Positions 10,401-63,258 of a stretch of 64,000 bases of DNA are shown here, one piece after another (positions within the stretch are counted from its first letter, which is position 1; every line of letters begins with the position of its first letter). Source of the stretch: Epinephelus fuscoguttatus (taxonomy: Eukaryota > Chordata > Actinopteri > Perciformes > Serranidae); contig NC_064760.1 in the NCBI RefSeq assembly GCF_011397635.1, positions 27,688,856 to 27,752,855 on the forward strand, read 5' to 3'. The translations under genes and the position numbers were made by a program. Under the pieces are notes generated by a model. That model did no database searches, was not told the origin of the DNA, and was given only the letters and a program-made list of their open reading frames with translations.

Positions 10401-11844
10401 CCCTGAGGCTGACAGGCTACTTTATGAGAAGAGCTACCTGACTGAGGCTGGGCTGCAGCCTGGGGCAGATCTGCAAGTGTGTCAGTCTGCCTGTGTGGAG
10501 GGCCAGGTGCAATACCAGAGAGGGTCCCTGTGCACAGACAATGGCAGGCTCATCAGCTATGACTCAGTGGGCTCTCTGTCAGCCTCCTCCAGCAATTACA
10601 GCTCCCTCAGCCTCAAGTCTTGTGAGCGAGAGGGTGAGGAGGAGGGCCGAGACAGCTTCCTAGCTCATTGCAGTCCTAAAGTGGTGATTCAGCAGAGTGT
10701 GGACGCCCTTACCCCACTGAGGGAGTCCTCAGACCTGCTGGACATCTCCAACTTCACCCCTGACAAGTTTAGACACTCATCACTGTCAGAGCTCTCCCCT
10801 CCTGAGACCCCCAACCTGTCCCCCCAGGTTGTGGGGCGCGAGGTGAAGATGGCGGGGAATGTTGGAGAGTACCAGGATGTGAATGATATGACTATGGACT
10901 GCAACAGGGAGGTAAAGTGGAATTGTGACGTTATGCAGCAACAAGAGCATACAGCAAATGCATACACAGTGGAAGACAGTCAGTTTCCGCTGCACAACTT
11001 CAACAGTCAGGATGTGCTACATTTAGATAAAAAAGAGCTGGGAGTTACCGAATTTGACAAACAGACTGGTGAGATGTTGGCAGGAGCTAAAAGCATAAAG
11101 TCAAAGAGGAAAGGCAATTGCAAACAGGCAGCTGCAGGACAGAGTCCAAAGAAAGTGCGGGCTCCCAGAGCTCCCAAGTCAGAAAAGGTCAAGACCCCGA
11201 AACAGAACTCACGTTCCACCAAAAAGATAAAGGCCATGTTGGAGGGTAAGGCAGCAAAGAACCAGGCAGGTGGTTGTGGCACAGGCCTGACTGACAGTAG
11301 CAGCACCGGGGACTGGTCTGGCACCGGCTGGTCAGAAAGCAACAGCCTGGTTGGGGACGACCAGCGAGAATTCGAGGAGCCCTCCAATATTCTGTCCAAC
11401 ATTGTCTCTGGCATGGCAGAGGTCCAAAGGTTCATGATGGCCTCCATTGAGCCACTGTGGAATCCCATGTCTGAGGCCTGCATGCCCTCTGAGGCCAATA
11501 GCCTCAACCTAAAGACCCTCAAAATCTTGGCAGGCACAGAGGCCGACCTGAAGAAAAAAGGAGCCACACTAACAGGGGCGGGGAGAGGCAGAAAGGCAGG
11601 GGGAAAGGGAGGAAAGAACCAGGCCAAATTCAACCCCTCTCATCCCTTATTCCCTCAACTAGCTCTGGGCTGTAACATGTTTGATAAACCCAACTTTATT
11701 AACCCTGGGCCTGCACACAAAAAGCTGTACCGCCACAAGACCAGTGCAAAGTTCCCGCGGATTGAGACACTGAAGGGGAAGCGAGCTGAGAGAGACCCAA
11801 ATAAGGACATAGCACTGATGACCTCTTTTGAGAAACTGAGGTAA
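1054..11844 (+). CDS. nexmif: nexmif (KIAA2022), neurite extension and migration factor
   Basis: This is the fish orthologue of a nuclear/cytosolic protein needed for neurite outgrowth and neuron migration; loss of the human X-linked gene causes intellectual disability. Coding exons seen: 1054-1135 (27 codons plus one base, donor GTGAAA) and 7622-11844. The join is in frame (ACA G|GG GTA), giving about 1434 residues against about 1516 in human. Blocks recalled from the human protein include SRTCLGCF-like RTCLGCFIE, QDWGYFESFISESK, LCSKNELSVNLFSEEDVDN, YGLRSKRKVRYSDDYLYDVD, IKYIIINRFKGE, IPGGYLQTLLDA, LLDISNFTPDKFRHSSLSE, MAEVQRFMMASIEPLW and HKKLYRHK. Basic KKRRK stretches could be nuclear localisation signals. 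The N-terminal 28 residues are poorly conserved. The C-terminus is uncertain: CTGAG|GTAATA at 11842 looks like a donor, and the human protein continues about 30 residues past SFEKLR, so a further small exon may exist. The start upstream of the splice at 7622 in the same open frame is intronic. Confidence 0.93.
4379..4660. repeat. GT and CA dinucleotide microsatellites
   Basis: An almost pure GT run occupies about 4379-4432. A CA-rich run with ATG/CAT interruptions occupies about 4563-4660. The two are complementary in sequence, about 130 bp apart, and could pair as a weak hairpin. The open frames across them encode only cysteine-valine or histidine-threonine runs and are not genes. Confidence 0.9.
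6411..7196. mobile_element. MITE-like element with inverted ends in the nexmif intron
   Basis: The left end reads AAGGGATAGTTCAGATTTTTTGA and the right end, reversed, reads AAGGGATAGTTCAGCTTTTTGA; after that both share a weaker ...TTG(T/C)ATGGGGTA block, so inverted similarity extends about 50 bp. TTAA lies at both borders, which would fit a TTAA-targeting family, but the border bases are ambiguous. No transposase is encoded. It resembles a repeat common in percomorph genomes; I do not know its family name. Confidence 0.6.
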
Positions 11845-19713: not shown

Positions 19714-22700
19714 ATGGAGGGGTCTGACAGTTCTGAGCAGAGTGGCAGTGACCAGCCAGAGTCACAGCGCAGAAGGCAGCTGGACCGCCTGGACAGGGAG
19801 GAGGCCTTTTACCAGTTTGTCAACAATCTGAGTGATGAGGACTATCGTCTCATGAGAGACAACAATCTTTTGGGCACCCCAGGTAATTAACATTTAATTA
19901 CAATAGTCTTTACTCTTGTGACTGTAATCTCTGACTGTGGAAATGGTGACGTTTGTATCATATTAAGCAACTCAAAGATAGGGCTGGGTATCAGTGCTCG
20001 GTACATTCCAGGTATTCAGAGTGGATTTAATTAATACCAGGCCACATCACACAGAAGCCTGACGGATCTTATTAAGCACATGTGTAATATGGGATTCATT
20101 CATTTTCAGTTTAGTTTTACCTGTTTTTTTGTTTTGTTTTCGCCTTCGTTTCTTTTCAGCTAACAACTAAAGCCCCACTGTCATTTCATCTCTCCTATTC
20201 TATGCTTTGTCTGAGCTGTATTGAATTTCATTCCTCCCTTTCAAAGTTTCAAACTGTTGGCTTACAAAAAGATTTTAAAAAAAAGTGCTAATATAGATTT
20301 AGACAAACTCAAACCAAGACATTATTATTATTATTTGTTAAAAAGGCTCACATCAGGTCTAGCTTGATGCAGAGGCCGGGCATGCGCAGCCACGTAGGCT
20401 ACCAATCACGGGAGCACTCCTGCCTTATTAACGACCCAGTGGCACAGTGAGGACAGAGGAAAGTGTCTGCTGCCTGAAAACTCCAGTGCGGACTGCTTTG
20501 CCCTTCTCATACTTGGAATGTGACACCCCACTACGTGTGTTCTGATGACGCAGTAAGTTTTGCACATCGTTCTTCTGGAAACGGACTGTTAACAGAGTTT
20601 ACCAGATATGGACATGTTCACTACTTGGTCACAGACAGTTGACACATATTCCAAGGCCTTACCATTATCTGTGCCAAAGTGATTAGTTATCGATCGATTT
20701 GGATGTGCTGGATGTGATGAAAGCTGTCGTCATGTAAACATTTACTTCCCAGGCATTAGTATGCCTCCTCTTTACAGCAAGCAATCTCTAGAGTTTTTCC
20801 TGCATTGATAATGTGTGTTCTTCTGTAATTTCCTCCCATACAGATAAAACACAAACCTATGGGCTTGCTGTGCTGTATGCTGTTGCATTCACACTAAAGA
20901 ATGAAAGTTATCCATCATGACTTCCTGTGTTTTGATTGATAGTCCTTGGATGATGGCCATCCTTTATATCCGGACTTATCCTTACTGTCCTATTTATATT
21001 ATTAGATTAATACTCTGTTGCTTACTCTGATCCTTTATTTACACTTTGTCAGGTGCTTTACACCAGCAGTTTTCATTATTGTCCCGTTGCTGCTTAAAAG
21101 AAATGGTTCAAGTGCCCAATACAGTTCAAAATTTACCACCAGTCCTTTTCATGTACAACATTTCAGCGTAATGCAATATTTTTTTCCCTATACTGGTTCA
21201 CTACCAGATTTGTTGCTGTTACAGTTTGTCCCTCTGCTGAATTCCCCTCTATCTGTCCATTAAATCAGAAAATGTTTGATCTTATTGTAGGGAGTTAATC
21301 TTTTCCGCTCAGCCACCTGCAATTGACTCTCTCTCAGCTTACATTGGTGGTCAGGCTAGAGAAGAGGAATTGTAAGAAACCTTAATAACCTTCAAGGAAT
21401 ACGTGGATTGCCAAAAAATATTTTTTCTTTTTTTAATAACAGACCGTTGTTTTGTGTTGTAATGTCTCTTTCAGGAGAAGTAACGGAGGATGAGCTGTTT
21501 AGCAGACTTCAGCAAATCAAGGATGGTCCAGAACAGCAGAATAACAGTACTAGTGCCCCCAGTACTGAAAATGGAGAAGATCCAGTCGGTAAGTTTGGCA
21601 TTTTTTTAAGAAAATTTATTCACCATCAAATTCAGATAATTTGTCAATTGTTAACTCTTCTGATTTTCAGAACCACCAGAAAACCCTGAGGATCCTGCCA
21701 ATGGGGATAGTCTCTTAGACTGGCTGAACACAGTGAGGCGCACAGGCAACACTACCAGAACTGGTCATCGTGGTAACCAGTCATGGCGGGCCGTAAGCCA
21801 GACCAACCCAAACAGTGGGGATTTTCGCTTCAGCCTCGAAATCAGTGTGAATCGAAACCTGGCTGAACAGCAGGCAGCTGCTGAAGGGGAGCAGGAGCCT
21901 CCACAGGAGTCTTCCCAGGAATCTCCAGAGGGTCAAGAAGTGGTGGCAAATGCTGAACCACAGGTGCCTATGGAGACAGAAGTGGTGGAGGAACCAGTAG
22001 TAGAGGAATTGGCTGTCATAGTGGAGCCAGAGCCTGAACCAGAGCCTGAGCCAGTGCTTGAGCCTGAGCCAGAGCCTGTGCCTGAGCCAGAGCCTGAGCC
22101 TGAACTAGAAGAAGTTGTTTCACAAGAGATTTTAGGAGAACGTCCCAGCTCACCTGCTGCCCTGCCTGTACAACCCCCACTTTCTCCTCCACGTAGAGGA
22201 CAGAGGAGAGCCCGCAGCCGTAGTCCAGAGCCACGCAGGACTAGGGCCCGTACAGCCAGGAGCCGTTCCCCTCTCAATCTGGATCAGCTGGATGGTCTCC
22301 CTAATTCACGTCATGCTCACTCCTCTCAAAGCATCAGCTCTGCCACCAGTGTCTCCCCTGTGCCTCAGGTGGAGGGCAGCTCTCGGACTCGACAACATGT
22401 TCTTTCTAGGCAAAGCACTGCTGACAGTGATGTTCAGCCATCTAGGGCTGGCGAAGAAATGGTCCCTGAGGCCCAAAATGTAGGATCTCAGGAAGGAGAA
22501 GCTACTGGGGGTGAAGGGGGTGCAGCAGGGCGCCGTCCCCCTACTATTATGCTTGATCTCCAGGTGCGTCGTGTGCGTCCAGGCGAATATCGGCAAAGAG
22601 ACAGCATTGCTAGTCGCACCCGTTCACGCTCCCAGAACTCAAACAACACATTTCTTTATGAAAGTGAGCGTGGTGGATTTCGTAGGACTTTCTCACGCTC

Positions 22701-23403
22701 TGAGCGTGCTGGTGTGAGGACCTACGTCAGCACTATTCGCATACCTATCCGAAGAATCTCCGATGCAGGTTTGGGAGAGGCAACCTCAATGGCTCTCCAG
22801 TCTATGATTAGGCAGATTATGACTGGTTTCGGTGAACTCGGCTACCTCATGGATTCAGATTCTGATTCTTCAGATTCAAACCGCGGAGCCAACACACCTG
22901 CGGATCTGGCTGAAGCTCTCAACAACCCAGATGCTCCACCTGCTGCTGCTCCTATAGCTGATGTTGATGAACCACCTGTGGCTGCTGGAGTCAGAGCAAG
23001 GACAGCTGAGACTGATATTGATGAGGGCCTTGCCGCTGCTCCACCTGCCTCTGGTGGCAGGGCCCGACCTAGACCACCTATCAGCCTAGAGGAGCCCAGC
23101 TCACTGCCCTTCCTGCGGCTTGCCCATTTCTTCCTCCTAAATGATGACGACGAGGACCAGCCCCAAGGGTTGACCAAAGAGCAGATTGACAACCTCTCAA
23201 TGCGCAACTTTGGTGAGAGTGATGCCTTGAAGACTTGCAGTGTCTGCATAACAGAATATGCAGAAGGTAACAAGCTACGTAAGCTGCCCTGCTCGCATGA
23301 GTACCACGTGCACTGCATTGATCGCTGGCTATCGGAAAACTCCACTTGCCCCATCTGCCGCAGGGCTGTCTTGGTATCAGCCAACCGAGAGAGTGTGGTG
23401 TAG
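19714..23403 (+). CDS. rlim: rlim (rnf12), RING-H2 E3 ubiquitin-protein ligase
   Basis: RLIM ubiquitinates LIM-domain cofactors (LDB/CLIM), REX1 (in mammals, tied to X inactivation) and SMAD7 in the nucleus. Coding exons: 19714-19882, 21475-21588 and 21671-23403; all junctions are GT-AG and in frame, giving 671 residues (human 624). The N-terminus contains [15 protein letters not shown] and [15 protein letters not shown], nearly identical to human. The middle has basic [12 protein letters not shown] and the conserved [39 protein letters not shown] and [11 protein letters not shown] blocks. The RING-H2 domain, residues about 617-658, has all ligands ([17 protein letters not shown]). The C-terminal ESVV matches the family. 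Residues about 214-241 are a fish-type Glu-Pro repeat absent from the human protein. The ATG at 19714 aligns with the human start; an upstream in-frame extension is 5' UTR. Confidence 0.97.
19883..21474 (+). other. rlim intron between its first two coding exons
   Basis: About 1.6 kb with GT-AG ends. A stretch beginning GGGCTGGGTATCAGTGCTCGG near 19980 looks like the end of an interspersed repeat, but I could not find its other end. No gene is seen. Confidence 0.6.
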
Positions 23404-37018: not shown

Positions 37019-38646
37019 CAGTGGTGGAAAAAAGTTTTCGGACACCCCATGCATTTGTGAAATATTGCATTAAGAATCACTCTTAGGTCTTCAAGTGCAA
37101 TTTCTTTTAGTACAGTCACAGCCAAAATACTAAATAAATCCTAAAAAAGCCATTAAAAACTTAAAATTGATTGGTTCCATAAAAATACATAAGAAATTTT
37201 GAGTATTGGGTCATTTTGGTACCAGTGATGAAGGTCGTTCTTTTTATTAAAAGACACAATTTTTGTTGCTAAGCTTCATGTCTACATAAAGCCAGCACAT
37301 TTGAAAGTTCTTCAGACACAAAAATGGCTAAAACAAGGAACCTAACGCAGGAAACACGCCTGAAGATAAAGATTCTCAGCCAGGAAGGGTACAGCTGCCA
37401 CCAGATAGCCAGGAAGTGCAGATGCAGTCCTTCAGCAGTTGGATACACTCTGCAGAAATACAGACGAACCAACAGCTTGGAAGACAAACCAAGATCTGGG
37501 CATCCAAGGGTTTCTTCAGCAAGAAATGACCGCATCCTGATCCGCATGTGCAGGCAAAACTGCCGAATGGCATCACAGGAGCTTCAGCAGCAGTGGTCAA
37601 ACCAAACTGGTGTCCAGTGTTCCACCCACACTGTACGTGGCCGACTTTTAGATCATGGCTTAAGGTCCTACAAGGCTACCAAGAAGCCCCTGATCAATGA
37701 GAGACAGAGGTTAGCCCGCGCCGTTGGGCCCAGGCACACAAGAACTGGACAGCCAGGAATTGGAAGAAGATTTTGTGGTCAGATGAGTCCAGTTTCCAGC
37801 TTTATCTTCCTCCTACTAATGTGAGGGTACGCAGAAGGCCAGGTGAAGCATTATCTCCAGCATGTACAGTACCTACTGTCAAGCATGGTGGAGGCAGTAT
37901 CATGGTTTGGGGATGCATGAGTGCTGCTGGTGTTGGTCATCTCACTGTCTGTGATGGCACATTGAACTCTACCAAGTATTGTACCATTCTCGAAACCCAC
38001 ATGCTCCCTTCTGCGCGTGCTCTGTTCCGTCGAGGTAAAAACTGGATGTTTCAACAAGATAATGCCCCTTGCCACACATCCAAGGCCAGTAGAGCTTGGC
38101 TGCAGGAGCACAGTATCCAGGTCTTAGAGTGGCCAGCTCAATCCCCAGACATGAGCCCCATTGAAAATCTGTGGTGGATTATCAAAAGGTCTGTTTCAAA
38201 GCATAAACCAAAGAATTTAGAAGAATTAAAAGCAGTAATTCAAGAAGAATGGGACAAGATTACCCCTCAACATGGTGAAAGGCTCGTGGGGAACATGCCA
38301 GCCAGGATTAGAGCTCTACTACGTGCCAGTGGCAGGACTACTAAATATTAATTTGATGATGTGATGGTTTATTTATTTTTTGTTCAGTTTTGAACACATT
38401 CTCTGTTATTTGTTGACTTTGATACCTACAATGTTGAGAACTGACATATTGAAACTGTCAAGAATTTAGTTTTGTTAGTTTTTCTTGTAAACAATAAACA
38501 AAAAAATATAATTTGTATTTGTTTGTATCTGTCTAATGCAGCCACACCTTTTGAAACACAAAAAAGATTTTTCCACAAATATTTCATGATAATATTTGAG
38601 ATTGTGTAAAATTTTAAGGGTGTCCGAAAACTTTTTTCCACCACTG
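37019..38646 (+). mobile_element. Tc1-like DNA transposon with near-intact transposase
   Basis: A 1.6-kb element with inverted ends starting CAGTGGTGGAAAAAAG (about 29 bp, ending near GGACACCC) and TA at both borders (37017-37018 and 38647-38648). It encodes a Tc1-family transposase on the + strand. The pre-insertion sequence is visible at a related site near 40447-40460, where the minisatellite runs into ACTTAAGCAA without an insert. Confidence 0.95.
37324..38351 (+). pseudogene. Tc1-like transposase, one frameshift
   Basis: The N-terminal part (MAKTRNLTQETRLKIKILSQ, then a helix-turn-helix with HQIARKCRCSPSAVGY and a GRPR-like SGHPRVSS) lies in one frame to about 37730. The catalytic part continues in another frame as HKNWTARNWKKILWSDESSF. 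The DDE triad is present: Asp in WSDESSF, Asp in QQDNAPCHTS and Glu in SPDMSPIENLWW. A single shift near 37727-37733 separates the halves. The copy therefore looks inactive, but the catalytic residues and both ends are intact, which points to modest age. Confidence 0.93.
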
Positions 38647-41924: not shown

Positions 41925-44900
41925 TCATTGCAGCTGTGAGAGAAGGGCCCTGCAGTCTCCATGTCTGTCCAGCTCCTCCACCACATCAATCAACCTCTCA
42001 ACCTTCTCAGAGGGAAGCACCACCCCTGCGTTGTTTCTGAACTTCTTCTTCAGGCTCTCATTAGTCAGCGGGTTACGCCAGTGACCGTAGAAGGTGTCAC
42101 AGCGTCCCTTCAGGATGTCTCCCCCAGCAAGTGTCACCTGGACTTCTCCATACATGCGGTTGAAATTAGCTGGGTTGTCCTGGGGATGCTCTACGCGTAC
42201 ACGGCTCAGCAGAGCGAGCAGTTCAGGGCGCCTCAGGGCAGGGGGTGTGAAGGACTGCACAGTCACCTCCCCATCCAGGAGGGCGCTGCAAGCATTGAAC
42301 TGGAAGGAGTGGCGTGCCTCATGCTCAGAGTCAGGGAAAGGCCTGTTGATGTACTTTGATTTTGGGACTCTGAGCAGGATGTCTTGGACTTGAGCTGGGG
42401 AGACAGTGCCAGGGCCCAACCCCACAAGAAGCTTATGGACTGAGGCCGCAGCATCTGCCACCCAGTGCATCCCCAGATGGGCGGGGAAGCGCTTGAAGCC
42501 CATGTCCTGCTCCTCTAGCAGGAACACATGGCCATCATCATTAGGTGATTCTAAAGGCTGTGGCACATAGTCTTCATAAAAAGCACTGAAGCCAGCCACA
42601 CCAGCAACGGCATCCAGGACCAGAGAGCTCGCCTCTAGGCCTCGGGACGCCAGCAGAGCAGCCTCCAGCCCCAAACGTGAGGCATTACCGATGTGGAGGG
42701 GTTTCGACTGAGTGGCAGCATTAGCCATTGGGGCTCCAGATAGCGAAGCAGCTATGGCCAAGGCATGACTGCACTGGGAGTGATCCAAAGACAAGAGGCG
42801 AGCACAGGCGGCTGCACTTCCCATGGTCCCCACCACACTGGGAGGGTGAAACCTAGTGATGAGAAAGACAGAAAGAAAGACACTTTGGTCAGGCGCTTTG
42901 GAACTATTTACTTTTGTGACTAAAGGAGCATTTCAAATGGTTGCTCTCCGTCATCATGGTTAGCACTCCAGTTTATAAAAGGGTCTCTTTGTACAAACAG
43001 CCATTCTGTCATGAAACTCCCCACATACAGAGACAGCTTATTTCAGGGGCGTTAGGGGACGTAGGTTTTTAGTCATTTCAGTATTTGAGAAACAAGCAAA
43101 TAATGTGACGGGTCATTTCACTTGGTGTAAACACTTGCCAAATGGAGTCCTGTGTGATATTCTCCTCCACATGGCTAATTGTGCTAACACTACCCACAGA
43201 GCCTCTGCTGTCCTTGAGATGAACATAATAACACGCCTTTCACAGCTCATTGACACCACTAAGAGGCTGCACATTACACTGCACCAGCCTCCTTGTAAAC
43301 CCCACTGCAGAGATCAGCAGAGTCAATATGGATCTGTTTAGACTCATGTGGATACTTGTTCTCCATGTAGAGTACAAATAAAAACTCCTTACCAATGAGA
43401 CAGCTTTATATCTAATAAATCACCACTGTAATGACCCAGTAAAGTACAAAACCTGCTGTAATGTTGCCATTAAACTATAAATTACAGTAGCTATGTCCAA
43501 TTTGAGTCACGCTCTGACCTCTTGGGGATGTTGTGAGCCTCATTAGAGAACCTCATCAATCTGCCCTGGATCTCAATGCCGATGTTGAAGGCCAGCAGGA
43601 AGTCCAGGCCACTAGGTTTGCTGTTAGCAGGCATCATGTCACTGAGTGCTAGCACAGCAGGAAGGACTGCTCCTGAGGGATGAGTGGCGGGGTGCCATGT
43701 ATCATCAAAATCCATGGAGTGAGTCTGCGGCAAAAAACACGAACACATTTTTTTAAACAACCGAGTAATTAGGGGTAATAGAACGTAGAGTTGCTGAGCT
43801 TCATGAAATAATACACAAGCCAGCTGTAAACACTGAGTTTAAATGATGCAATTCATCTCATTTCTCTGTTATTGCTCACTGCAGCCAATGCATTTCAATT
43901 GGAAAATCCCTTTAATTGCCATAACAGGCTTCAACCACTGGAGGCACATGCAGCATGCTGGAATGATACCCTGATGGCTTTTTTATGAGTGAAGGCCAAG
44001 CAATGTTTGCAGATATAATACTGGAAATTTCTGCAGAAGGATAATGTGGGGTCAATTCAGTACTTCTCATCAACCCCTGCTACGGCTGGCTGTACAGACA
44101 GGGCCATAGCTGAGTATAACAAAGCTCTACTTTGCTTGTGGTAATGGGTTTAGTACATCTGAGTTGCACTGGGACAATAGTGATCCATCTGTTCCACCTA
44201 TTTATACTCACAGCCACTCCATTGACGAAAGCTGCCAGTGTCGGGGAGAGCCTGGAGCCCCTGCGTCCGTACACAGAGCTGATGTCATCGGGTGCATACA
44301 TGTGCTGAGGGGGAAAAGACGGAGACAGGTAAACACAGGGAGTTGCCACAGGGATATTTTTAATACAACAGTTTACAGTCACAGATTGTGTCATCGCACA
44401 TATAAAGGGAACTTTAATTGAAACAGCTGCAGTAAGAAAGCAGAATAAGTTTCTTTGTAAGTTACATGTCAATAAACACAGAAACTCTGAGGAAAAAGGT
44501 CACCGGGCTTAAAAAACCCTCCCTGTTCCTAAGTTACATGATGAAATTCAGTTTAATAATAACCTGAGATTTCTTTGAACTCATCTCGTCTCTCCACACA
44601 CAGCCAGTGCACTGACTTACAAGCACTGTTTGTATAAGGTCAAGCAGATGCTTTCATCTCTCTTATTGCCTCATATCAGATAAGATCTTAAAGTTATTTC
44701 TTCCCCCTCTGCTTCACCTGGCAGTACTGCAGGGCCAGCTCAAACACCTCCGTCGTGCTGCCGATCAGACCAACCCCAATGCTGTCCAGCACCATTCTTT
44801 TGCTGCGGTGGAGCACCACAGAGGACAAGTGCTGGGGCTTTACTTCGCTGATGAACTTTCCAAAGCTGGCTGTGACTGTGTCCTCAGGGGCCGGGCCCTT

Positions 44901-45595
44901 CAAGACTGCAGGGAGGAAAGAGGTCAGGAGTAAGGAAAGGAGACATTGTTAGTTTGCTGTTTGTAATGGCTGAAGCAGAGAGAGATGTCTTCTTGTATTT
45001 GGACAAAAGGGTGGAGTTAAGTTTACCTTCCACTGCAGACTTATGCAGTCCTCTGACAGCCAACACTGGTCTAATGGTTTTCTGTAGGACAAAGCGTACA
45101 TGATATCTCTACTGACACCTGTAAACCACTAAGTGTGACATTTACTCTATTACTGTAATTTCTTTTTTTTTAACACCTCACATTAATTTCAGGCCGCAGA
45201 CACACCTCAGATCTAATTACATCAGCCTCTTAGTGGGCATTACTAAAATGACTGTTACGCACCCTGTGTGCCTCTTTTGAAAGAGCTATTATGCTGGTGT
45301 AACAGGTGTGGTGCAGTATGTATAAACTGCTCAGCATTACCAAGAGCTCTATTAAATTGCCCTCTACCATGTGCTCACAAAATAACCACACAGTGCAAAC
45401 TATATGATGATTTTAGAGTTTTGTATTGACTCGTAAACAGCACTTGCTGAAGTAAGCAGTGTTAAGCATACTGAGCAACCTACTTGACTTAATCAAGCAT
45501 GAACAAAATTCATGATCATATAGATCCCTAATACTTGAACAGGAAATGCTCTGCAAAAAATATCTATAAACCTCTACCTGTAATGTGGAGATCAT
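41925..45595 (-). CDS. acod1: acod1 (irg1), cis-aconitate decarboxylase, makes itaconate
   Basis: ACOD1 converts the TCA-cycle intermediate cis-aconitate to itaconate, the antimicrobial and immunoregulatory metabolite of activated macrophages, at or in mitochondria. Six coding exons on the - strand: 45578-45595, 45027-45081, 44718-44905, 44212-44304, 43519-43724 and 41925-42852. All junctions are GT-AG and in frame, giving 495 residues (human 481). It belongs to the MmgE/PrpD family. Residues known as essential in the human enzyme (Asp93, Thr97, His103, His159, Lys207, Tyr318) are present with a constant offset of 30: D123, T127 and H133 in HSMDFDDTWHPATHPSG, H189 in RFHPPSVVG, K237 in TQSKPLHIGN and Y348 in KYINRPFPDSEHEARHSF. 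The offset is an N-terminal extension (MISTLQKTIRPVLAVRGLHK...) with basic residues and no acidic ones until Glu24, as in a mitochondrial presequence. A TATA box lies about 100 bp upstream of the ATG. Confidence 0.97.
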
Positions 45596-45664
45596 GGCTT
45601 CAGTCAGTTGTTTCTTCTCCTCTGATGCAGTAGGTTGGAAGTCAACAGGTTGTTGGAAGGATGC

Positions 45665-46015
45665 TGATGCTTTTCAGATTGAAATGGTACCTGCCTTATA
45701 TAGTCCAGGACTCACAATGGCTACTGATACTGGCCTGGGAGGAACAGGAAAGGGCAGGTGTATCATAACAAAACTTCGGATTCTGAGGAATTTCCACAGT
45801 GGTGGACATCATCATCATAACCGTCATAACCAGCATCACTATGCTCAGAAGAGGAGGAGGAGGAAGGAAGGAGTAGTACTTCATTGTCTAAAGGGGGAGA
45901 GCAGTGATGTCACCTCTCAGGTTACAGACCATAGTATCATGTAGGGGAATTTTCATGAACTCCTCCTACTCACAAGGAGGCCTTATTTATGACAAACCTT
46001 CATCCCTACTTCAGA
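45665..46015. promoter_or_regulatory. divergent promoter region between acod1 and the permease-YrdC gene
   Basis: On the - strand CTATATAAGG (TATA core at 45695-45703) lies about 100 bp before the acod1 ATG. On the + strand TTATTTAT near 45982-45990 lies before a presumed non-coding exon of the divergent gene that ends at the donor CAG|GTAAG (46053/46054). Between them are GGAATTTCC at 45787-45795 (Rel/NF-kB core), TTCTGAGGAA at 45781-45790 (STAT-type TTC-N4-GAA, overlapping it), GGGGAATTTTC at 45944-45954 (a second kB-like site) and TGATGTCA at 45906-45913 (CRE/AP-1-like). Start sites are inferred from the core elements. The arrangement fits shared, inflammation-driven expression. Confidence 0.6.
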
Positions 46016-46053
46016 ACAACTCAATGCTTCATTTGTCTGAGCATCTCCACCAG

Positions 46054-47379
46054 GTAAGACTTTATTTCCTTTTGATATATTACTTTCTAGCTCACAGACT
46101 TTATTACATGTAACATTTTAAAATTCTGCATGAATTGCAATGAATTGATGGTGATAACAGGTGTTTTACTTGGGCTAGATATCTACAGTTAGTTAGAAGA
46201 TGCTTTGAAATTCCAACTCTGAAAATCTATAATTAAAATAATTACACCTTGTACCTGTCTTTTGGGTAAATATCAGTAAATACAGGTAAATTAGTTATGG
46301 ATGAAATGCTTACTTATGCTGGCACCTGCTGCTTTGCAGTCATTCAGGCAGGAAAGTTGATGCAGCTACTCCTCTGCGTCTCTTGTATACGCCCAGCTAT
46401 GCCCGGGCAGGGCCAAAGCTTTATCAGGTTATGTCACTGTTGGAGAGAGAGAGTCCAATTAGACTGAGCTGTGTTTGTAGGACTTAAGTTTGTCATCTTT
46501 ACTTTGAAGTATATTTTTGTTCCCTAAAAGCCTTTTAATCTGCTTTTAGTCTTGTGTTTTTTTCTATTTGTACAAAGCCCTACAAATATAAGGCATTAAA
46601 GCTGCAGCTGGTAACTTTATTAAAAATAAGTTTTTCCTCATATTTGCTCACACTGTCACTGTATTTTGAAAGAAGTTCATGTGACAGATAGACTGTGAAA
46701 AAATATCGCGTCCCTCCTCCTCTTCCACCAGCCAGACCAGCTTTCTCATTTTACAGCTAAACAGTACACTAAAGTATGTTTCTGAAAACATATGAGGTGA
46801 AAAATAGGCAATGCAGTGACAGAATCTTGATTTATGTTTGATCAGTGCTGCCTAGTTTGACAGTTCGACCGCAGTTGACATGACTGACAGCTGAGTTAGA
46901 GACTACTTGGCTCTGATTGGTTGTTTTCATTCACATACAGTAAGGGCATTAGAAGCGCTACAAGGCAAAAGAATTTCTTCACAGACTATATGTCTCAGTT
47001 AGTGATAGTTTCAGTAGATCTGAAGTTACGGACTACAACTTTGAGGTTGTTTTGTTCTCAAGTCAAGTTGGACTTTTCAACCACAAACAGTGACCTTTGT
47101 CTCTCTCTGCATATAATTTGGATGATACATTGCATTCATATTTAAGCAACACAGTGATACTTATAATACTATTACACTTTGGTAAATAAATTGTGACAAT
47201 GAACTTAATAAATCAACCAAAATCAAGACACTATTCTCAGTTTGTCTTTTGGGTGATTTCTGCATTTAGTATTGCACATAATACTTAATATATACCCAAC
47301 ATCAAATGTACATACATTCATGGATATGTTGTCTGTGTCATATGTTTCAGTTAAACCACAGCTTGACAACAAAGACAGC
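46054..47379 (+). other. presumed 5' UTR intron of the permease-YrdC gene
   Basis: From the donor at 46054 to an acceptor (TATGTTTCAG) ending at 47350, followed by 29 bases of untranslated sequence before the ATG at 47380. No coding exon is recognised inside. If the inferred splice is right, a weak-context upstream ATG at 46024 opens a frame that overlaps the true start out of frame. Confidence 0.5.
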
Positions 47380-50300
47380 ATGGCAACATCGGATGGATTC
47401 CCAGCCAGTTTCTACGGTGAACCAGGTGTCCTAGGCATGTTATCCAATGGGATCAGTGCATTCCTCGTACTCCTGCAGAACTTCAATACTGCACACACTG
47501 GCAATGCACCGGTTGGGGTGGAGAACATACTTGCAGGTAAGACATTTAGAAAATCTGCAAAAATGAGAAAATAAGAAGTTACATTTAGCTGTCATATTAA
47601 CTTAAATTCAATGTTTTTTATAGGTGTTCATCTCATCTTGATTGGTGGTATATGCCAACTGGTGGCCGGACTGCTTTCCTTCAGAAAATATGATCATCTG
47701 AGTGGCACTGCCTTCATCGGCTATGCGGCTCTTTGGGGCAGTTATGGTGCCACCAGAATCTACTTTGGTGCCTCAACTGAAAGTCCAACAACAGCCTCTG
47801 TGCCAGATGACATGTTGAACAATTTGTCCACTAATATGATGACGAACATGTCTCTGAATGCCACCTCAGAGGTCTCAGTTTGCCATTTATGCCTGTCCAT
47901 AAAAGAGACAGCTATCGCTGGTCTGGTCCCGTATATCCTCCTGTCCTTTCTCCTCGCCTTCTGCTCTGCCACAGTCAACTACATCATGCCATTTGTGTTT
48001 GGGGCCATCACAGCCACCTTAGTTTTTGAGGCAATAGGTCTGGTAGCGAGCTCCTGGGCTCTTGTTGTCGCTGGGGTTCTAGAGTTGCTCATTCTGCTTT
48101 TTGCCATCTATGGTTCAGCTGCACTGCTTGTCAAAGGTCTGACTCAACGTTTAGTCCTCAAAGGCTTCGGTACTCCCCTCTTTAATGTTCTCCTGCTAGG
48201 GACCACCAACTCAGGAAGCGCTCAAAGCATTGGCCAAGAAAAGAAGAAGAACACCAAATATGCAGAGCCCATGGCCTTGGGTTTCTTCTGTGACACTGTC
48301 GCCCCCTTCATATTTGCTTTCTACAGCTTTGGGTACATGAAGTCCTTTGGCGTAGGAGCTGCATGGGTCTCAATCATCACAGCTGCCCAGCTGTTCTCCA
48401 GCTACTATGCTCATCTGCGCCAAGACTGCTACCACACCACTAAGTTCGGCCTTCATGCCACATATTGGCTGATCAAGGCTTGGGATGAGTTTGTGCTATC
48501 TGTTCTGGTTGTGGAGGACAGTAAAGTGGTCTCAGGAAGGGAAACGATGGTTGGGAACTGGTTCTTTGTGATGGCAGGTGTGGTGCTCTGCGTGGGAAGC
48601 CTGAACACAGATGTCCTGGAGCTGATCCACAACATGCTGTTCGTCCTGCTCACACTCTCAACAGTCCCTCAGATTCCTCTCCAGGGACACTACATCTTTT
48701 TTGGTGTAGCTTGTTCCCTGTTTACCGCAGCCTCCCTGTACGGTACTTTCTCGCGTCTTATCAACACCATAGCAGAGAAGTCTCTGATCCCTGTGGGACC
48801 ACAGCCCATCTCCTCTGACCAGCTGAAGAAGGCTTTGAAGTGCTGCAGGGCTGAGCAGGGAGACCAGGAGGCGCTGCCCCGAACTGACCAGGCTTCAGAC
48901 GCCCTGTTCTACTTTTCAAATGGGGTTGCAGCTCTCTCTGCTCTACATGCGAGTTCATCCAGTACGAATCCTGTCTTCCTACATCTGACTGTCCCTTGGG
49001 TCCTCATCTCAGGAGCAATTATCCAGGTTTATGTCAGCCGACTGCAAGTCACAGGAGGTGGCCGTTTCGGGTCAGTCATCCCATCCATCTATGTAGCAGT
49101 ATGGGCAACGTGGACCTGGTTTAGATTTGCAAGTATGTCAGTATAAGCATGTGTTTACACGGAAACATGTTATGACTGAATAAGACAAAATTCTTATCCC
49201 ATGTTTTTCTTTTCTAGGCAAACTGCTTCAGCTGTCCACAGAGGCAGCCTACGGTTTCACAGCAGGAGCCGTTGCTCTCCTGGTCATTAATGCTTTCCTT
49301 ATGCTGATTGGTAAGGTCAACAAAATTATCTTTTTCAACAGAAGAATGAATGAATTTTTTTTGTTTTTGAGCTTGTTTTCATCCATCTGTTGTGCAATAG
49401 CTGCCTACAGGAACCTGGTTTTGCTGTCTCTAACAGCAGTCATGGAGGTTGTTCTGGTCTGTTTCCTGCTTTCCACTCTGCAGCGACTGCCATATGAACT
49501 AGAAAGTATGTATAAACAAAGCCTCATTCTGAACACATTGATGTAGGTTTTTAAATCTAGAAATCGTTAGAAATTAAAACAATATCTGTATCCTTCCAGT
49601 GGCCATGCTCGCACTACTTTCAATAATCTGTATATATGGAGCTCTGGCGTCACTGCTGAACTGCATCTTCTCACAAAGACTGCTGCCTATGGGCCCTCCT
49701 TTAATAAAGGTAACCATTTAAGACACTCCTTTTGCATTCCTCTGCTCAGTCTACAGTAGTCTGTCATATTTGACCCTGCTCATTTTATGAAAATGTCCCT
49801 CCCTCTGTGACCCGTCTCAGGAGGAAGTGAAGCAGCAGTCTGCTCCAGAGCTTCCCTGTCCTGTGACTGAATCACGACTCACCAGTGGTCTCCTGAAGAT
49901 CGCTGGCCTTCTGGAGGAAGGAGGAGTGTGTGGTATCCCCACAGACACAGTGTATGCCCTGGCTGCCTCCTGCAAGAATCCTCAAGCCATAGAGAAAATC
50001 TACAATATTAAAGTAAGGAAGAAAAACATGCTGGTAGTCAGTATCATTTTGAAGTGTAATATGAGACGGATCATTAAATCCAATTTTGCCTTTGATGTGA
50101 AACTCATCAACCTGTTATCTGTGACGTCATCCAGGACAGACCAGCAGAGAAGCCCATTTGCATTTGCATCTCTAATGTGGAGCAGCTGGTAGCAGCCAAG
50201 CCTCCCTTCAGCCCTCTGCTCTGGGAGTTTATGAGGAATGTGTATCCAGGAGGCATCAGCTGTATTGTCAGCAAAGGAGACTGGCTGTTCAGACTAGGTG

Positions 50301-51004
50301 AACTCTTCAGTTTGAATGTTGCTGGATTCAATTAACAACATCTTCATAATATTAATATCAATTATCGGTTTTCACCTCACCTTTTATTCATCTTGTGTAG
50401 GAGTAGGACCGGCTTATGATCGTGTTGGCACCAAGGACAGCATCATGATCCGTGTCCCTGACCACACAGTAACCGGCCACCTGTGTGACATCACCGGACC
50501 TCTTGCTATTACGTCAGCCAATCCCAGTGGAGAGTCTGACAGCACCCACCACTCCATGGTCATCAAGTAAGTGTCTCCTCACAGAACTTAAATGTCCTCT
50601 TACAGCAGATTAATCTCTGTGTCTTGTGTAGCATAGTGACAAATGTGTCATTTATTATCTATCACAGTGTTTTACTACAAACAACATGCATATTTATTCA
50701 CACACACTCTCCTGCATATTTTTTTGCCACAGTCGACTAGGACACAAGATCCAAGGCGTTCTGTGTGACGGGGACTCAAATGAAGTTGTTGCGTCCACCG
50801 TTGTTAACTGCCAAAAGATTGATGAAGGTAAAACACAAACATATTCCCCCTACATTCTCTCCTTTGTGTGTTTGCACATTCACTTTTCTAACTCAAGCCT
50901 ATCTGACTCTTTCCACAGGGACCATCACCATTGTGAGGGAAGGCTGTGTCCCCGCAGTAAAAGTCAGACAGATTTTCGACAGAGTGAAAAGCTCTATGGT
51001 GTGA
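47380..51004 (+). CDS. three SatP-like six-helix units fused to a YrdC/Sua5 domain, copy 1
   Basis: Ten coding exons: 47380-47536, 47624-49132, 49218-49310, 49401-49505, 49600-49709, 49821-50012, 50135-50297, 50401-50566, 50733-50827, 50919-51004; all GT-AG and in frame, 891 residues. Residues about 15-235, 268-445 and 477-658 are hydrophobic blocks of about six helices each. They resemble the GPR1/FUN34/YaaH (SatP) succinate/acetate permeases: GEPGVLGML recalls the NPAPLGL entry motif, and GGICQLVAGLLSFRKYDHLS-GTAF recalls the second helix and its loop. Each block ends similarly (KGFGTP, LIPVGPQP, LLPMGPPL). Residues about 675-885 are a YrdC domain: PTDTVYAL (698-705), K722-D-R724, YPGGIS (759-764; normally WPGPVT), RVPDH (794-798), TSANPSGE (814-821) and STVVNC. 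Asn sites (NLS, NMS, NATS) lie in the first loop. The start has a good context (AGCATGG). The substrate is unknown. The polyadenylation signal is probably AATAAA near 51490. Confidence 0.85.
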
Positions 51005-55897: not shown

Positions 55898-57521
55898 CAG
55901 TACAGGCCAAAAGTTTGGACACACCTTCTCATTCAATGCGTTTTCTTTATTTTCATGACTATTTACATTGTAGATTCTCACTGAAGGCATCAAAACTATG
56001 AATGAACACATGTGGAGTTATGTACTTAACAAAAAAAGGTGAAATAACTGAAAACATGTTTTATATTCTAGTTTCTTCAAAATAGCCACCCTTTGCTCTG
56101 ATTACTGCTTTGCACACTCTTGGCATTCTCTCCATGAGCTTCAAGAGGTAGTCACCTGAAATGGTTTTCCAACAGTCTTGAAGGAGTTCCCAGAGGTGTT
56201 TAGTACTTGTTGGCCCCTTTGCCTTCACTCTGCGGTCCAGCTCACCCCAAACCATCTCGACTGGGTTCAGGTCCGGTGACTGTGGAGGCCAGGTCATCTG
56301 CCGCAGCACTCCATCATTCTCCTTCTTGGTCAAATAGCCCTTACACAGCCTGGAGGTGTGTTTGGGGTCATTGTCCTGTTGAAAAATAAATGATCGTCCA
56401 ACTAAACACAAACCGGATGGGATGGCATGTCGCTGCAGGATGCTGTGGTAGCCATGCTGGTTCAGTGTGCCTTCAATTTTGAATAAATCCCCAACAGTGT
56501 CACCAGCAAAACACCTCCACACCATCACACCTCCTCCTCCATGCTTCACAGTGGGAACCAGGCATGTGGAATCCATCCGTTCACCTTTTCTGCGTCTCAC
56601 AAAGACACGGCGGTTGGAACCAGAGATCTCAAATTTGGACTCATCAGACCATAGCACAGATTTCCACTGGTCTAATGTCCATTCCTTGTGTTTCTTGGCC
56701 CAAACAAATCTCTTCTGCTTGTTGCCTCTCCTTAGCAGTGGTTTCCTAGCAGCTATTTGACCATGAAGGCCTGATTCGCAGTCTCCTCTTAACAGTTGTT
56801 CTAGAGATGGGTCTGCTGCTAGAACTCTGTGTGGCATTCATCTGGTCTCTGATCTGAGCTGCTGTTAACTTGCGATTTCTGAGGCTGGTGACTCGGATGA
56901 ACTTATCCTCAGAAGCAGAGGTGACTCTTGGTCTTCCTTTCCTGGGTCGGTCCTCATGTGTGCCAGTTTCGTTATAGCGCTTGATGGTTTTTGCAACTCC
57001 ACTTGGGGACACATTTAAAGTTTTTGCAATTTTCCGGACTGACTGACCTTCATTTCTTAAAGTAATGATGGCCACTGGTTTTTCTTTAGTTAGCTGATTG
57101 GTTCTTGCCATAATATGAATTTTAACAGTTGTCCAATAGGGCTGTCGGCTGTGTATTAACCTGACTTCTGCACAACACAACTGATGGTCCCAACCCCATT
57201 GATAAAGCAAGAAATTCCACTAATTAACCCTGATAAGGCACACCTGTGAAGTGGAAACCATTTCAGGTGACTACCTGTTGAAGCTCATGGAGAGAATGCC
57301 AAGAGTGTGCAAAGCAGTAATCAGAGCAAAGGGTGGCTATTTTGAAGAAACTAGAATATAAAACATGTTTTCAGTTATTTCACCTTTTTTTGTTAAGTAC
57401 ATAACTCCACATGTGTTCATTCATAGTTTTGATGCCTTCAGTGAGAATCTACAATGTAAATAGTCATGAAAATAAAGAAAACGTATTGAATGAGGTGTGT
57501 CCAAACTTTTGGCCTGTACTG
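55898..57521 (-). mobile_element. Tc1-like transposon with long inverted repeats
   Basis: Ends read CAGTACAGGCCAAAAG in both directions, flanked by TA at 55896-55897 and 57522-57523. The inverted repeats are long, about 270 bp (55898 to about 56169, and about 57256 to 57521). They run into the transposase gene, so the right repeat carries an antisense copy of its last 30 or so codons (GDYLLKLMERMPRVCKAVIR). It belongs to a different Tc1 family from the element at 37019. Confidence 0.95.
56061..57111 (-). pseudogene. Tc1-like transposase, one frameshift
   Basis: The N-terminal paired-like DNA-binding part (MARTNQLTKEKPVAIITLRN, VRKIAKTLNVSPSGVAKTIK, RPRKGRPRVTS) lies in one frame down to about 56830. 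The catalytic part (GNKQKRFVWAKKHKEWT onward) lies in another. The DDE triad is visible: Asp in WSDESKFEI, Asp in QQDNDPKHTS and Glu in SPDLNPVEMVWGELD. One shift between 56746 and 56837 breaks the frame. The ends and target duplication are intact. Confidence 0.93.
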
Positions 57522-58644: not shown

Positions 58645-61600
58645 CTATGACCCATTCCTGAAGACCGGACTTTGTTCAGGTAAAACTGTGGATGGTGTTG
58701 AGTTTTCATTTCCTCTTCCCGACTCTGATGTGTCATCGTCTCCTGAACTTTTGTCCCTTTGTGCATCTGGCAGGTGCAGTTCATATTCAAAAGCGGGATT
58801 TATCTGCCCCATTCTGTGCCGCTTCTGAACCTCCTCAAAGATCTGAAGAACCTTCAAAGCACACAAACAAAAGCGGCAGGTATGAGTGTAAGCATACACT
58901 GACCTTAAAATGTTTAGAATGAAAACAACAAGAGGGGATGTTTATATTACCTTAGATTTAGGAATGAGACCCACTCTGAAGAAACCAATATGTCCTGATT
59001 CAATCTTGGTGCAGTCAACCACAGTAGATGCAATGTTCTCTGGAGAGGGTCCGTCACATAATACTCCATCCACCTAACCAAGCAAAATGTAGTTTATTGC
59101 AAAAAATAAAACCCCAGTGCCTCTTGTATTTAATAACACTGAAATACTGTCCACACCTTTTTGCCCAGCTTGGCGTAAACTTGGTTGTGGTGAGTTGTGT
59201 CTGCCTCGCCTGTGGGGTTGGCTGAGGTCACAGCGATGGGCCCCACCTGCAAGAGAAAGGTTGTTGTATTTATTAAATTTTAAAGTTAGTTTCACTCACT
59301 TTAAGACTTTGTAGTGATTCATTCCCACAGTCCTTACCAGATTAATGAGGTGTGTGGCCACAGAGCAGTCTGGGTTTCTGATTGCAATGCTTTGTGGAGT
59401 CCCAATGTGTTTGGCAGCATCTCCTAAACCAAAAGTGTCCATCCACGGGCCTGCATGAGCCAAGAAACCAATGTGATGATCATAAAACCCTCATCATGCA
59501 ACATGAGGCACCCACACAGGCATACACACACAATCTCGCACATACACACACACACACACCTCTGGGTATAACCATGCTAATGGAGGAGGGCCACGCAGCC
59601 TCCATGAAGTCCAAGAGCAGAGGGCTCAGCAGGTGTCGCACCGGCTCCAGCTGCTTGATGGAGGAGATCCAGAGGGATATGGGTCGGTCCTGCGCCTGCT
59701 TCTTCACCCTGAGGTCAGACACAGCAGTTAGGGAGTAATGGGACTGAATCAATAAATGAATGCAGATAAAGACACACTCATGAAAACTCACTTGTAAGCT
59801 TTGATGACTGCGTCAGGCCTGTTGCAAGCTGCCACCAGCACGTAGACAGTATCAGTAGGCATTCCACATATGCCACCATTTTTCATGATTTCTGCAGATG
59901 GACGAAGAAGAAAAATACATCAAGTATACAAACAAATGTGTGTGTTTTCTTATATCAACATGGGTTTCTTTAACAGATTCTCACCTGCAATGTGCTGCAC
60001 AGACGTGGCCTTGCGGGCTGGTAAATGTGGACAGATATCTGCGCCTCCCCCAACCCCGCTCAGTTTGACTAAAGGTTTTCCTAAGGGGATCTGAGGGGAC
60101 TGGAAGGTGCTGTTGAAAATGTGCGCAAGGAAACAATAAAAACTGACAAGACCGAAGATGATGGTGACTCCTATGTCGTAACCATACGGCAGTGCACCTA
60201 CTGCATCCAGCAGAAAGCTAATCAGGATGAGCTGGAAGGTGAGGGCGTAACAAAACCAGGCCACATTTAGAAACAGCGCTGCAGCTGTCACTAAACAGTT
60301 AAACAGCATGAAGCTAATGATCCCGACAGCCACATTAAAGCTTCTGGTTTCACCGTACAGGCTGCCGTACCGTGTCAACCCCCACACTGCCCACATCACT
60401 CCGTACAGAATAAAAACTGTGCTTTGAAAGGTTTTACCTCGAGCAAAGGCCACTGAGCCGCAGAGCAGCTGGAGCACCCCTCCGGCCACCACCACCCAGG
60501 GCAGAACCAGCACAGACAGAGGATCTCCACGAACTGTGGCTGTGATGGCAAAAGCAGCCAGCACACTGCAGGCGTGACCTAACACCTCTGCATCAGCGTA
60601 CTTAGAGTAGCCCAGGTGAGGCGCATGTAGCTCCTTATCATGGGCTCTGAGAGTAAGACCCTGCATCCTGCTTACTAAAGCCTTGAAACAGCCTGACCCT
60701 GTGGGAATCTTTGTAGTGGAGACCATGTTGAATGTGGTAATTAAAAGCATGCCGGCAGTGAATACAAATATAGCTCCCTGTACACCCTGTGTGCCTCCTT
60801 GGAAGAAGCCTTGAGGCTGGGCTGCGATTGCAATACAATAAGCTGCAAAGAACAACTGGTAGAGCCCCTCCAGCAAGCTCTTCTGACAGCTGAAGAGAGC
60901 CAGGATGGAGAAAAGCACAGAGAAGACAACAGGGAAGGGAACAGGGGAGAAAGGCTGAATTTGGTAGAATGATAGGAGCGCGCTGTAGCCCTCTGCAAAT
61001 TTCAGCAGAGCAGTGAAGCCATAAAAAGTGGCAGCTAGTGTGTCCATGGCTCGGTAGAAGAGGACACACATGCCAAGCTGGAAGACTCCAGCTGTCCACA
61101 GCCAGGGGACGTGACCGACAGAGAGCTTGGGGACCACGCCTAACAGAGGACAGGCTAACACAGAGGCAGACAGCAAGTTCATCACCAGGCCCACTGACAC
61201 TGCATCGCCACACCCCCAACTCTGCTCTGTTTTCAGCTCAGCTTTCTTCTTCAGGCCCGTTCCTGGAGGCTCCACTTTACCATGAGTGACGGTGGACAGC
61301 AGACGTCCAAAACCAAAGTAAACACCCACCAGACAGACAAGCAGGTAGTTAGCAGCTGTGGCAGACTGACCAAAACCTGCAGCTGACAAACCAGCGATTT
61401 GATGGGCACATGCTAAGCTAATGCTGACAGCGATGACAAATAGAACTGCTTTCTTTGCTACGACTGCTGCGCCGCTGATGACGAGCAGGGCTAAGGTAAA
61501 TGCTGCCAGGCCAGGGACCAGAGAGGATCTCAGCTCTGTGGGCTGCAGCACCCTCTGCCCCACCAGGATGTACACCAGACCTGAACCACACCACAGAGCG

Positions 61601-63258
61601 GAGACAGTCAGACACAGAGTGGAAAACAGCTGGGCGTGGGACAGACTGCGACGGATACCTGAGAGACAGAGAGTGAACAGAGCAGAGGAGCGTGAGGTTT
61701 ACACGCGAGTGCATCAATGAATACTACAAATGAATTAATTTAAAAAAACTTATAATAAGCAATTATCATAATTAACCTGCATAAGCTAAGAGGGCTGCAA
61801 TGATGAGCAGCAGAACCCCCAGTGCAGTATGAGGGATAAAGTCTTTTTCAGGTGAGCTGGCATAGTTGTTCACCAACAGCAGGAGAGAGCCTATGAGTCA
61901 AAACATAACACATTATCTATTTTTTACTGGCAAAAACAGACAAACAAGGAAAAACAAACACAAAATATAGCAACCATGTTACAACATTTGGATTGTTTTA
62001 ATTTACAGATTTGATGTAGGTAATTATTAATTTAATAAAAACTGTCTTCCCTCTCTTAGATTTCAATTTCAAAAACAAAGAACATGCTTTTTAAAATTTA
62101 TACAAGACTAATATGCCAATTTTTAAAGTAGTGACGTTAGGTAATTTGGGACATCAGGTAAAATGAGACAAATAAGGTTTTACATATTTAAATATTAGCA
62201 GCTAGTCACCAAACATGTTATTTCACTTATACTGCAAATGTGCTTTGAAACAATATTCTGAGATAACTGGGATGGGCAGAGCAAAAATAACAAAAAAAAA
62301 AAAAAAAAAGTGACATGTTTATTTTCTCATTCTGGTCATAAGAGCACTGCAGCTAAAACAATAAAGGTATAACAACAATTGTGGGGTGTCTCATTTTATT
62401 ATCTGTTAAACTTACAGTCAAAATATTTTCACAATACACTGAACTTTTTATGGAAAAATGTTTTGATGCAGTACTTAATGCATTCAGGTAAAATTTGGAT
62501 ATTTTTCTGAGGTGACCCAGCATGTTTTAAGCTACCAGGCACCATTTTTTGTCACTTAAAATAGTATATTCAAGATGATGCAGTGAGTCCACGCCAGTCG
62601 CCAGTAACAACAGTCCAGAATTAGCCATCATTTTTACACATTCTTTTTTAATGAATAGCCACAGGTTACATTCATGATTTAATAAATTAATGTCTGAACT
62701 GATACATGGATTTAACCATTAAAAAAACCAAACATTTTGTAAACAGTTTACCTTTCTAGTTGTCCCATTGTACCTGAACATATCATCGCAGTAGGCAGGG
62801 GCTCTTGATGTGTTTAAAGGTCTAAAGTTTCTCAGTTATTTTACTTGTTGACATATTTTCATGATAGAAATATAGTAGAGATTCATAACAAGTTCTATAA
62901 AGTATCACTTAAGGTAGTCTGCGGAATTTTAAGTGGATTTCTTGGTAATCTACCAAAAAGTGTCCCATTAACCTGACCTGCATATCACCATGACATATAA
63001 CTACCACCACTAACACAGCTGGTTTCTGATTTTAGTGTCTAGGTTTCAGAGGTTAGAAAACACAGGTCTTATTTATGATGTTACTTTAGTTTTTTTTTTA
63101 GCATACAGTTATATGATATTCATGATGACAGGTAATGAACGAACAACAGCAGAGAGTAGACTTTTCAAAATATGGTAACTGGTGTATGTAAATAAAGGCT
63201 TACCGCCGGAGATGCCAAGTATGCCGACAGACACATGTAGTGAGTTGACTTGTGCCAT
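58645..63258 (-). CDS. three SatP-like six-helix units fused to a YrdC/Sua5 domain, copy 2
   Basis: Nine coding exons on the - strand: 63204-63258, 61777-61890, 59985-61658, 59792-59891, 59560-59708, 59338-59450, 59157-59246, 58951-59073 and 58645-58851. All are GT-AG and in frame, 874 residues. It has three membrane units as in copy 1. The third unit is the most permease-like: GGVLQLLCGSVAFARGKTFQ then FILYGVMWAVWG, recalling the SatP segment QL-x-AG-x-x-x-F-x-x-GNTF. The YrdC domain covers about 615-812: PTDTVYVL (626-633), TSANPTGE (742-749) and STVVDC. But K-x-R is K650-K-Q652, WPGPVT is WPSSIS (687-692) and RIPDH is RNPDC (722-726), so synthase activity is doubtful. The last 60 or so residues are a hydrophilic Ser/Asp/Glu-rich tail absent from copy 1. 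The membrane part of units 2-3 is in one exon, where copy 1 has three extra introns, while the first unit here has an extra intron. Confidence 0.85.
61891..63203 (-). other. first intron of fusion copy 2
   Basis: 1.3 kb, AT-rich, with GT-AG ends and no coding exon recognised. It contains a poly-A run near 62290-62310. Confidence 0.7.

Follow-up and report, generated by a model that had tools for sequence, protein, structure and literature searches.

Two predicted SatP/ATO-like membrane protein-YrdC fusion genes near an ACOD1-family gene in the grouper Epinephelus fuscoguttatus

The locus and its two fusion genes

Here, we analyzed a stretch of 64,000 nucleotides (nt) from the grouper Epinephelus fuscoguttatus (contig NC_064760.1, positions 27,688,856 to 27,752,855 of the forward strand; this whole stretch is the window, and its own numbering is used throughout). 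Within it lie two genes, termed A and B, each predicted to encode a SatP/ATO-like membrane protein fused to a YrdC domain, and an ACOD1-family gene next to A (Table 1). An original prediction had proposed the fusion for gene A and overlooked gene B.

Gene A reads from the ATG at 47380 to the TGA at 51004 through 10 exons, with every intron GT-AG and a single frame of 891 amino acids (aa). The profile check suggested along with the original prediction upheld both of the families named there, as the translation matched Pfam Gpr1_Fun34_YaaH (PF01184) over aa 12-98 (1.6e-7, 31.6 bits, gathering cut-off 25) and Sua5_yciO_yrdC over aa 688-872 (5e-36, 124.3 bits, cut-off 25.1); the YrdC motifs PTDTVY, KDR, RVPDH and SANPSG are also present, as had been claimed. 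An Epinephelus lanceolatus protein (P0001), named si:ch211-153b23.3 after zebrafish, is 98% identical and of the same length. We found 312 relatives of A at E <= 0.001; among the best 120, over which all 120-protein counts for A were made, many are full-length fusions, and the rows that name an organism all come from ray-finned fishes, bowfin, gar and sturgeon among them. Given the equally long P0001 and these full-length relatives, the joining of membrane and YrdC parts is no splicing artefact. The predicted gene model thus confirmed that gene A joins a three-unit SatP/ATO-like membrane protein to a C-terminal TsaC-type YrdC domain.

Gene B was located by tblastn of the fusion family against the window. 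Its nine exons, with GT-AG introns, encode 874 aa that matched PF01184 (33.5 bits, cut-off 25) and PF01300 (108.8 bits), and its product and the si:ch211-153b23.4 protein of Epinephelus moara (P0121) share 98% identity. It has 412 relatives in all, the best 120 of which underlie the counts for B. In the YrdC part, 97 of 216 aligned positions are identical between A and B, against 41/189, 29/211 and 41/188 in the three membrane thirds. At this locus, none of the nine introns of A is shared in position and phase with any of the eight of B, which argues that the split between them is old or that their ancestor was intron poor. A single long exon (1509 nt in A and 1674 nt in B) encodes the bulk of each membrane part, so that an intron-poor ancestor is possible. 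In 38 of the 43 species compared, gar included, A and B are found on contigs of equal size.

Table 1. Positions of the genes and their features in the window
Feature	Position	Strand	Details
Gene A, si:ch211-153b23.3 ortholog	47380..51004	+	891 aa; splice check, Pfam, database protein P0001
Gene A coding exons 1-5	47380-47536, 47624-49132, 49218-49310, 49401-49505, 49600-49709	+	
Gene A coding exons 6-10	49821-50012, 50135-50297, 50401-50566, 50733-50827, 50919-51004	+	
Gene A membrane unit 1	47380..48159	+	aa 1-231, one intron; PF01184 aa 12-98; six helices in model
Gene A TM3-TM4 loop of unit 1, bearing N-glycosylation sequons and predicted to be extracytosolic	47773..47898	+	aa 103-144
Gene A membrane unit 2	48271..48774	+	aa 269-436; six helices in model
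Gene A membrane unit 3	48898..49667	+	aa 478-644, introns within
Gene A YrdC/TsaC-type domain	49854..51001	+	aa 670-891, introns within
Gene A K-x-R Lys codon	50010-50012	+	
Gene A Asp-Arg codons	50135-50140	+	
Gene A SAN codons	50514-50522	+	
Gene B, si:ch211-153b23.4 ortholog	58645..63258	-	874 aa; tblastn, splice check, Pfam, P0121
Gene B coding exons 1-5	63258-63204, 61890-61777, 61658-59985, 59891-59792, 59708-59560	-	
Gene B coding exons 6-9	59450-59338, 59246-59157, 59073-58951, 58851-58645	-	
Gene B membrane unit 3, most SatP-like unit	60052..60642	-	aa 396-592
Gene B Lys650-Lys651-Gln652 codons, K-x-R motif position	59696..59704	-	splice; alignment counts
ACOD1-family gene, probably irg1l	41925..45595	-	495 aa; splice check, domains, PDB matches
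ACOD1-family gene exons	45595-45578, 45081-45027, 44905-44718, 44304-44212, 43724-43519, 42852-41925	-	six exons, intact frame
Stretch between ATGs of ACOD1-family gene and gene A	45596..47379	.	possible shared promoter (inference only)

Membrane units and YrdC active sites

The SatP-like membrane units of the original prediction could be refined. Predicted structures of both A (using the model of P0001) and B contain 18 long helices, arranged as three six-helix units; unit 1 of A matched SatP itself at E 0.015, and units 2 and 3 of A are linked by profile comparison with a probability of 94.3%. From these models and profiles, each of A and B is shown to be one predicted protein in which a TsaC-type domain follows 18 membrane helices, with at least one of the three units clearly SatP-like.

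The family signatures of these units are nevertheless altered. PF01184 scored 23.5 bits in sturgeon A (under the cut-off of 25), and all four fusion proteins tested (21.4-25.4 bits) missed the 50-bit cut-off of the NCBIfam equivalog AceTr_1. Compared with the AceTr motifs given in PMC13316224, the NPAPLGL signature is absent, reading E-P-G-V-L-G-M in A unit 1 and E-P-M-A-L-G-F in A unit 2. At the position of the SY[F]GFW motif of the third transmembrane helix (TM3), A unit 1 has GYAALW (Y in 71/72 rows, W in 72/72) and B unit 3 has LYGVMW (Y in 66/69, W in 69/69), with the other units weaker. The putative constriction position, which we take to be that of the SatP constriction Phe, is occupied by Asn in all 72 rows in A unit 1 and by Asp in all 71 non-gap rows in A unit 2. 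Because both the AceTr signature and the constriction residue are changed, the substrate of A and B may be something other than acetate or succinate.

The loop between TM3 and TM4 of A unit 1 carries from two to five N-glycosylation sequons in each of 72 rows (alignment A1), and the inter-unit loops of A are rich in Lys and Arg. In light of these ubiquitous sequons, we suggest that A is routed through the endoplasmic reticulum (ER), with its N terminus and YrdC domain in the cytosol.

We then compared the active-site residues described for Sua5/TsaC (PMC10321239). In A, K56, R58, S143, N145 and S181 are present in 120/120 proteins, T33 in 119 and R195 in 114 (with 6 gaps), as is the TsaC-type signature Thr in all 120; among A-like rows from other vertebrates, the Lys and Arg are retained in eight of nine, the axolotl having Glu for K56. 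B likewise retains K56, S143, N145, S181 and R195 in 120/120. However, Arg58 is found in none of the 120 B proteins, its place being taken by Gln (112), His (5), Lys (1), Ala (1) or Glu (1), and all 120 have Ala replacing Pro59 and Trp at position 67. Against TIGR00057, the NCBI equivalog for threonylcarbamoyl-AMP (TC-AMP) synthase (cut-off 123.2), P0001 scored 119.3 and sturgeon A (P0117) 124.7, and two B proteins scored 108.7 and 98.1. Judged by their residues, A resembles a functional enzyme, and B resembles either a pseudoenzyme or an enzyme of altered specificity.

The neighboring gene, expression and distribution

The gene next to A, head-to-head with it in this window, had been called acod1. 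Its membership in the ACOD1 family stands, since it encodes MmgE_PrpD_N and MmgE_PrpD_C domains and its best solved-structure matches are ACOD1 chains 7br9 and 6r6t (ca. 1e-165); its assignment as the acod1 ortholog is doubtful. The window also holds a long DUF4683 frame (7486-11841, +) and a RING-finger frame (21664-23400, +), useful as synteny markers, which are presumably NEXMIF-like and RLIM-like, respectively. In human, NEXMIF and RLIM lie on Xq13 and ACOD1 on 13q22. Because the two marker genes recall Xq13, and given also the position of zebrafish acod1, the neighbor is probably the irg1l paralog and not an acod1 ortholog. Zebrafish acod1 itself is on chromosome 9 (PMC10846535). irg1l is a homolog of mouse Irg1 that is induced by bacteria in zebrafish (PMC3206475), and such a neighbor hints at a possible role for the fusion genes in infection. 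Two kB-like GGAATTTYC sites (45787 and 45946) in the putative shared promoter are the sole matches in the window; at least two such sites occurred in 43 of 100 window shuffles, and hence, taken across the entire window, their number does not exceed chance expectation. Tc1-like transposase frames lie at 37273-38351 (+) and 56061-57219 (-), the latter between genes A and B.

In zebrafish, three published data sets list irg1l together with one or both fusion genes. Upon Shigella sonnei infection, irg1l and si:ch211-153b23.4 and.5 rank among the top 50 differentially expressed genes (PMC6980646); irg1l and si:ch211-153b23.3 and.5 are among the hubs of a gene module in which inflammatory terms are enriched (PMC11140123); and irg1l and si:ch211-153b23.4 and.5 are upregulated by very low perfluorooctane sulfonate (PFOS) (PMC9228135). 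The third gene of the same clone name, si:ch211-153b23.5, thus is also listed alongside irg1l.

The fusion architecture is already in print: in June 2026, Ghasemi et al. (iScience; PMC13316224) described a vertebrate ATO-Sua5/YciO/YrdC fusion of three units and unclear function, found as two clades across every major vertebrate lineage except mammals, and suggested a possible six-domain ring and horizontal transfer. Its main text nowhere uses the terms “itaconate,” “irg1,” “acod1,” “synteny” or “catalytic.” To this account we add the divergence of A and B at the active site, an argument on membrane topology and the linkage seen at the grouper locus. A YrdC-only search gave 117 matches (candidates of 124-394 aa), with birds, lizards, frogs, coelacanth, sawfish and axolotl at ca. 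63-80% identity, and membrane stretches were seen by eye ahead of YrdC in six of eight sequences inspected (coelacanth, lizard, one frog, two birds and axolotl). Four gastropod proteins (P0241, P0273, P0280 and P0288) have YrdC domains 51-59% identical to that of sturgeon A and nest within the vertebrate A clade, albeit without firm support (94/88), a placement that fits the published suggestion of horizontal transfer. In two of the four, the YrdC domain is present twice, whole or in part.

Possible functions and known systems

Our best explanation, which we hold tentatively and with some doubt, is that A and B diverged long ago within the vertebrate fusion family and together form a transporter that is linked to inflammation and coupled to an adenylating YrdC domain in the cytosol, active in A and regulatory in B. 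Both proteins would be routed through the ER to the plasma or endolysosomal membrane, their YrdC domains facing the cytosol; a pair of protomers, perhaps A with B, would form a six-unit ring resembling the SatP hexamer and transport a small polar metabolite. Close to the pore, the YrdC domain of A may use ATP to form a product that is adenylated or carbamoylated, thereby trapping or sensing the substrate, while that of B would be a regulatory partner. Expression of both would accompany inflammation and the neighboring ACOD1-family gene, and candidate substrates are itaconate or an itaconate product or, alternatively, threonine or bicarbonate.

Several observations weigh against this explanation. 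Profile comparison did not significantly link units 1 and 2 of B to any other unit. A sequon also occurs, in 24 of 72 rows, in the loop between A units 1 and 2 that is predicted to be cytosolic, which leaves some doubt about the topology. The 43 species include five (rainbow trout, Astyanax, bowfin, turbot and Dissostichus mawsoni) with A and B on contigs of unequal size, and different assemblies may account for some of these. Epinephelus A falls just under the TIGR00057 cut-off that sturgeon A exceeds. The linkage of gene A to the ACOD1-family gene comes from a single window, the coexpression with irg1l from few lists, and in one further study si:ch211-153b23.3,.4 and.5 carry mixed signs (PMC8877790).

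The original prediction, which our data support in part, had raised a role in moving itaconate. This is a reasonable hypothesis, although as a full account, in which A and B carry neighbor-made itaconate (or succinate or acetate) across the plasma, phagosomal or another membrane and YrdC only regulates, we think it unlikely. It would make sense of the head-to-head gene, whose best PDB matches are ACOD1 proteins, of the listing with irg1l in zebrafish and of the predicted SatP-like fold; itaconate does need transporters, and mammalian ABCG2 and MCT1/4 have been described (PMC12658120). Such a carrier leaves the full active site of A unexplained, however. The changed ATO motif residues (E-P-G-V-L-G for NPAPLGL in unit 1 of A, with Asn or Asp at the presumed constriction) also weaken a plain carboxylate-anion reading, and the sequons of A suggest ER routing, whereas ACOD1 is mitochondrial. 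That active site would instead suit a membrane-tethered factor for threonylcarbamoyladenosine (t6A), with A making TC-AMP locally for tRNA and the membrane part serving as an anchor or as a supply of threonine or bicarbonate: every tested residue, with the roles assigned in PMC10321239, is retained in A together with the signature Thr. We nonetheless regard this as quite unlikely, since mammals reportedly lack the fusion family and yet have t6A through free-standing YRDC (PMC6722078 and PMC7102964), B fails the K-x-R test and by that test cannot be a TC-AMP enzyme, and inflammation-linked expression is unexpected for a housekeeping modification. Similarly improbable to us is a noncatalytic role for both YrdC domains, in which they would gate the pore by sensing ATP, bicarbonate or an acyl group. 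B, without Arg58, may still have a ligand site because K56, S143, N145, S181 and R195 are invariant in it, but the active site of A is unbroken across the 120 fish proteins, save for single departures and the gaps, and intact in the other vertebrate rows apart from axolotl.

A more specific and distinctly less likely version of the transporter-enzyme proposal is that a heteromeric A-B six-unit ring in the plasma or phagosomal membrane moves an itaconate-linked, inflammation-induced metabolite, from which the YrdC domain of A, with ATP, makes a new adenylated or carbamoylated metabolite under regulation by B. If true, this would be a transporter-synthetase immunometabolic module that mammals have lost. 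More generally, a conserved transporter-enzyme fusion reported as absent from mammals and head-to-head with an itaconate-enzyme gene is a candidate for the movement or processing of immune metabolites in other vertebrates. The A/B active-site split makes the question of enzyme or sensor directly testable, and zebrafish, the source of the family's gene names, is a ready system.

Like the family of Ghasemi et al., A and B are roughly 900 aa long, with three six-helix units ahead of the C-terminal YrdC, and their lengths (891 and 874 aa) and Gpr1/Fun34/YaaH plus Sua5/YciO/YrdC content place them in it; unlike the present analysis, that account, in the parts we drew on, does not treat active-site residues. 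Relative to the SatP/AceTr/Ato proteins (E. coli and Citrobacter SatP and yeast Ato1), A and B differ in having three units per chain, a fused enzyme domain, and an altered signature motif and constriction position. With the TsaC/Sua5 TC-AMP synthases, both share the fold, and A shares the tested active-site residues and the TsaC-type signature Thr; the fusion to a membrane protein sets both apart, as do the loss of Arg58 and the Trp at position 67 in B. The neighboring gene belongs with ACOD1/IRG1 and fish irg1l, of which it is probably the latter paralog. Finally, HypF and TobZ likewise have a TsaC-like domain fused to other domains, one that uses carbamoyl phosphate; where they carry a Kae1-like domain, A and B carry membrane units instead.
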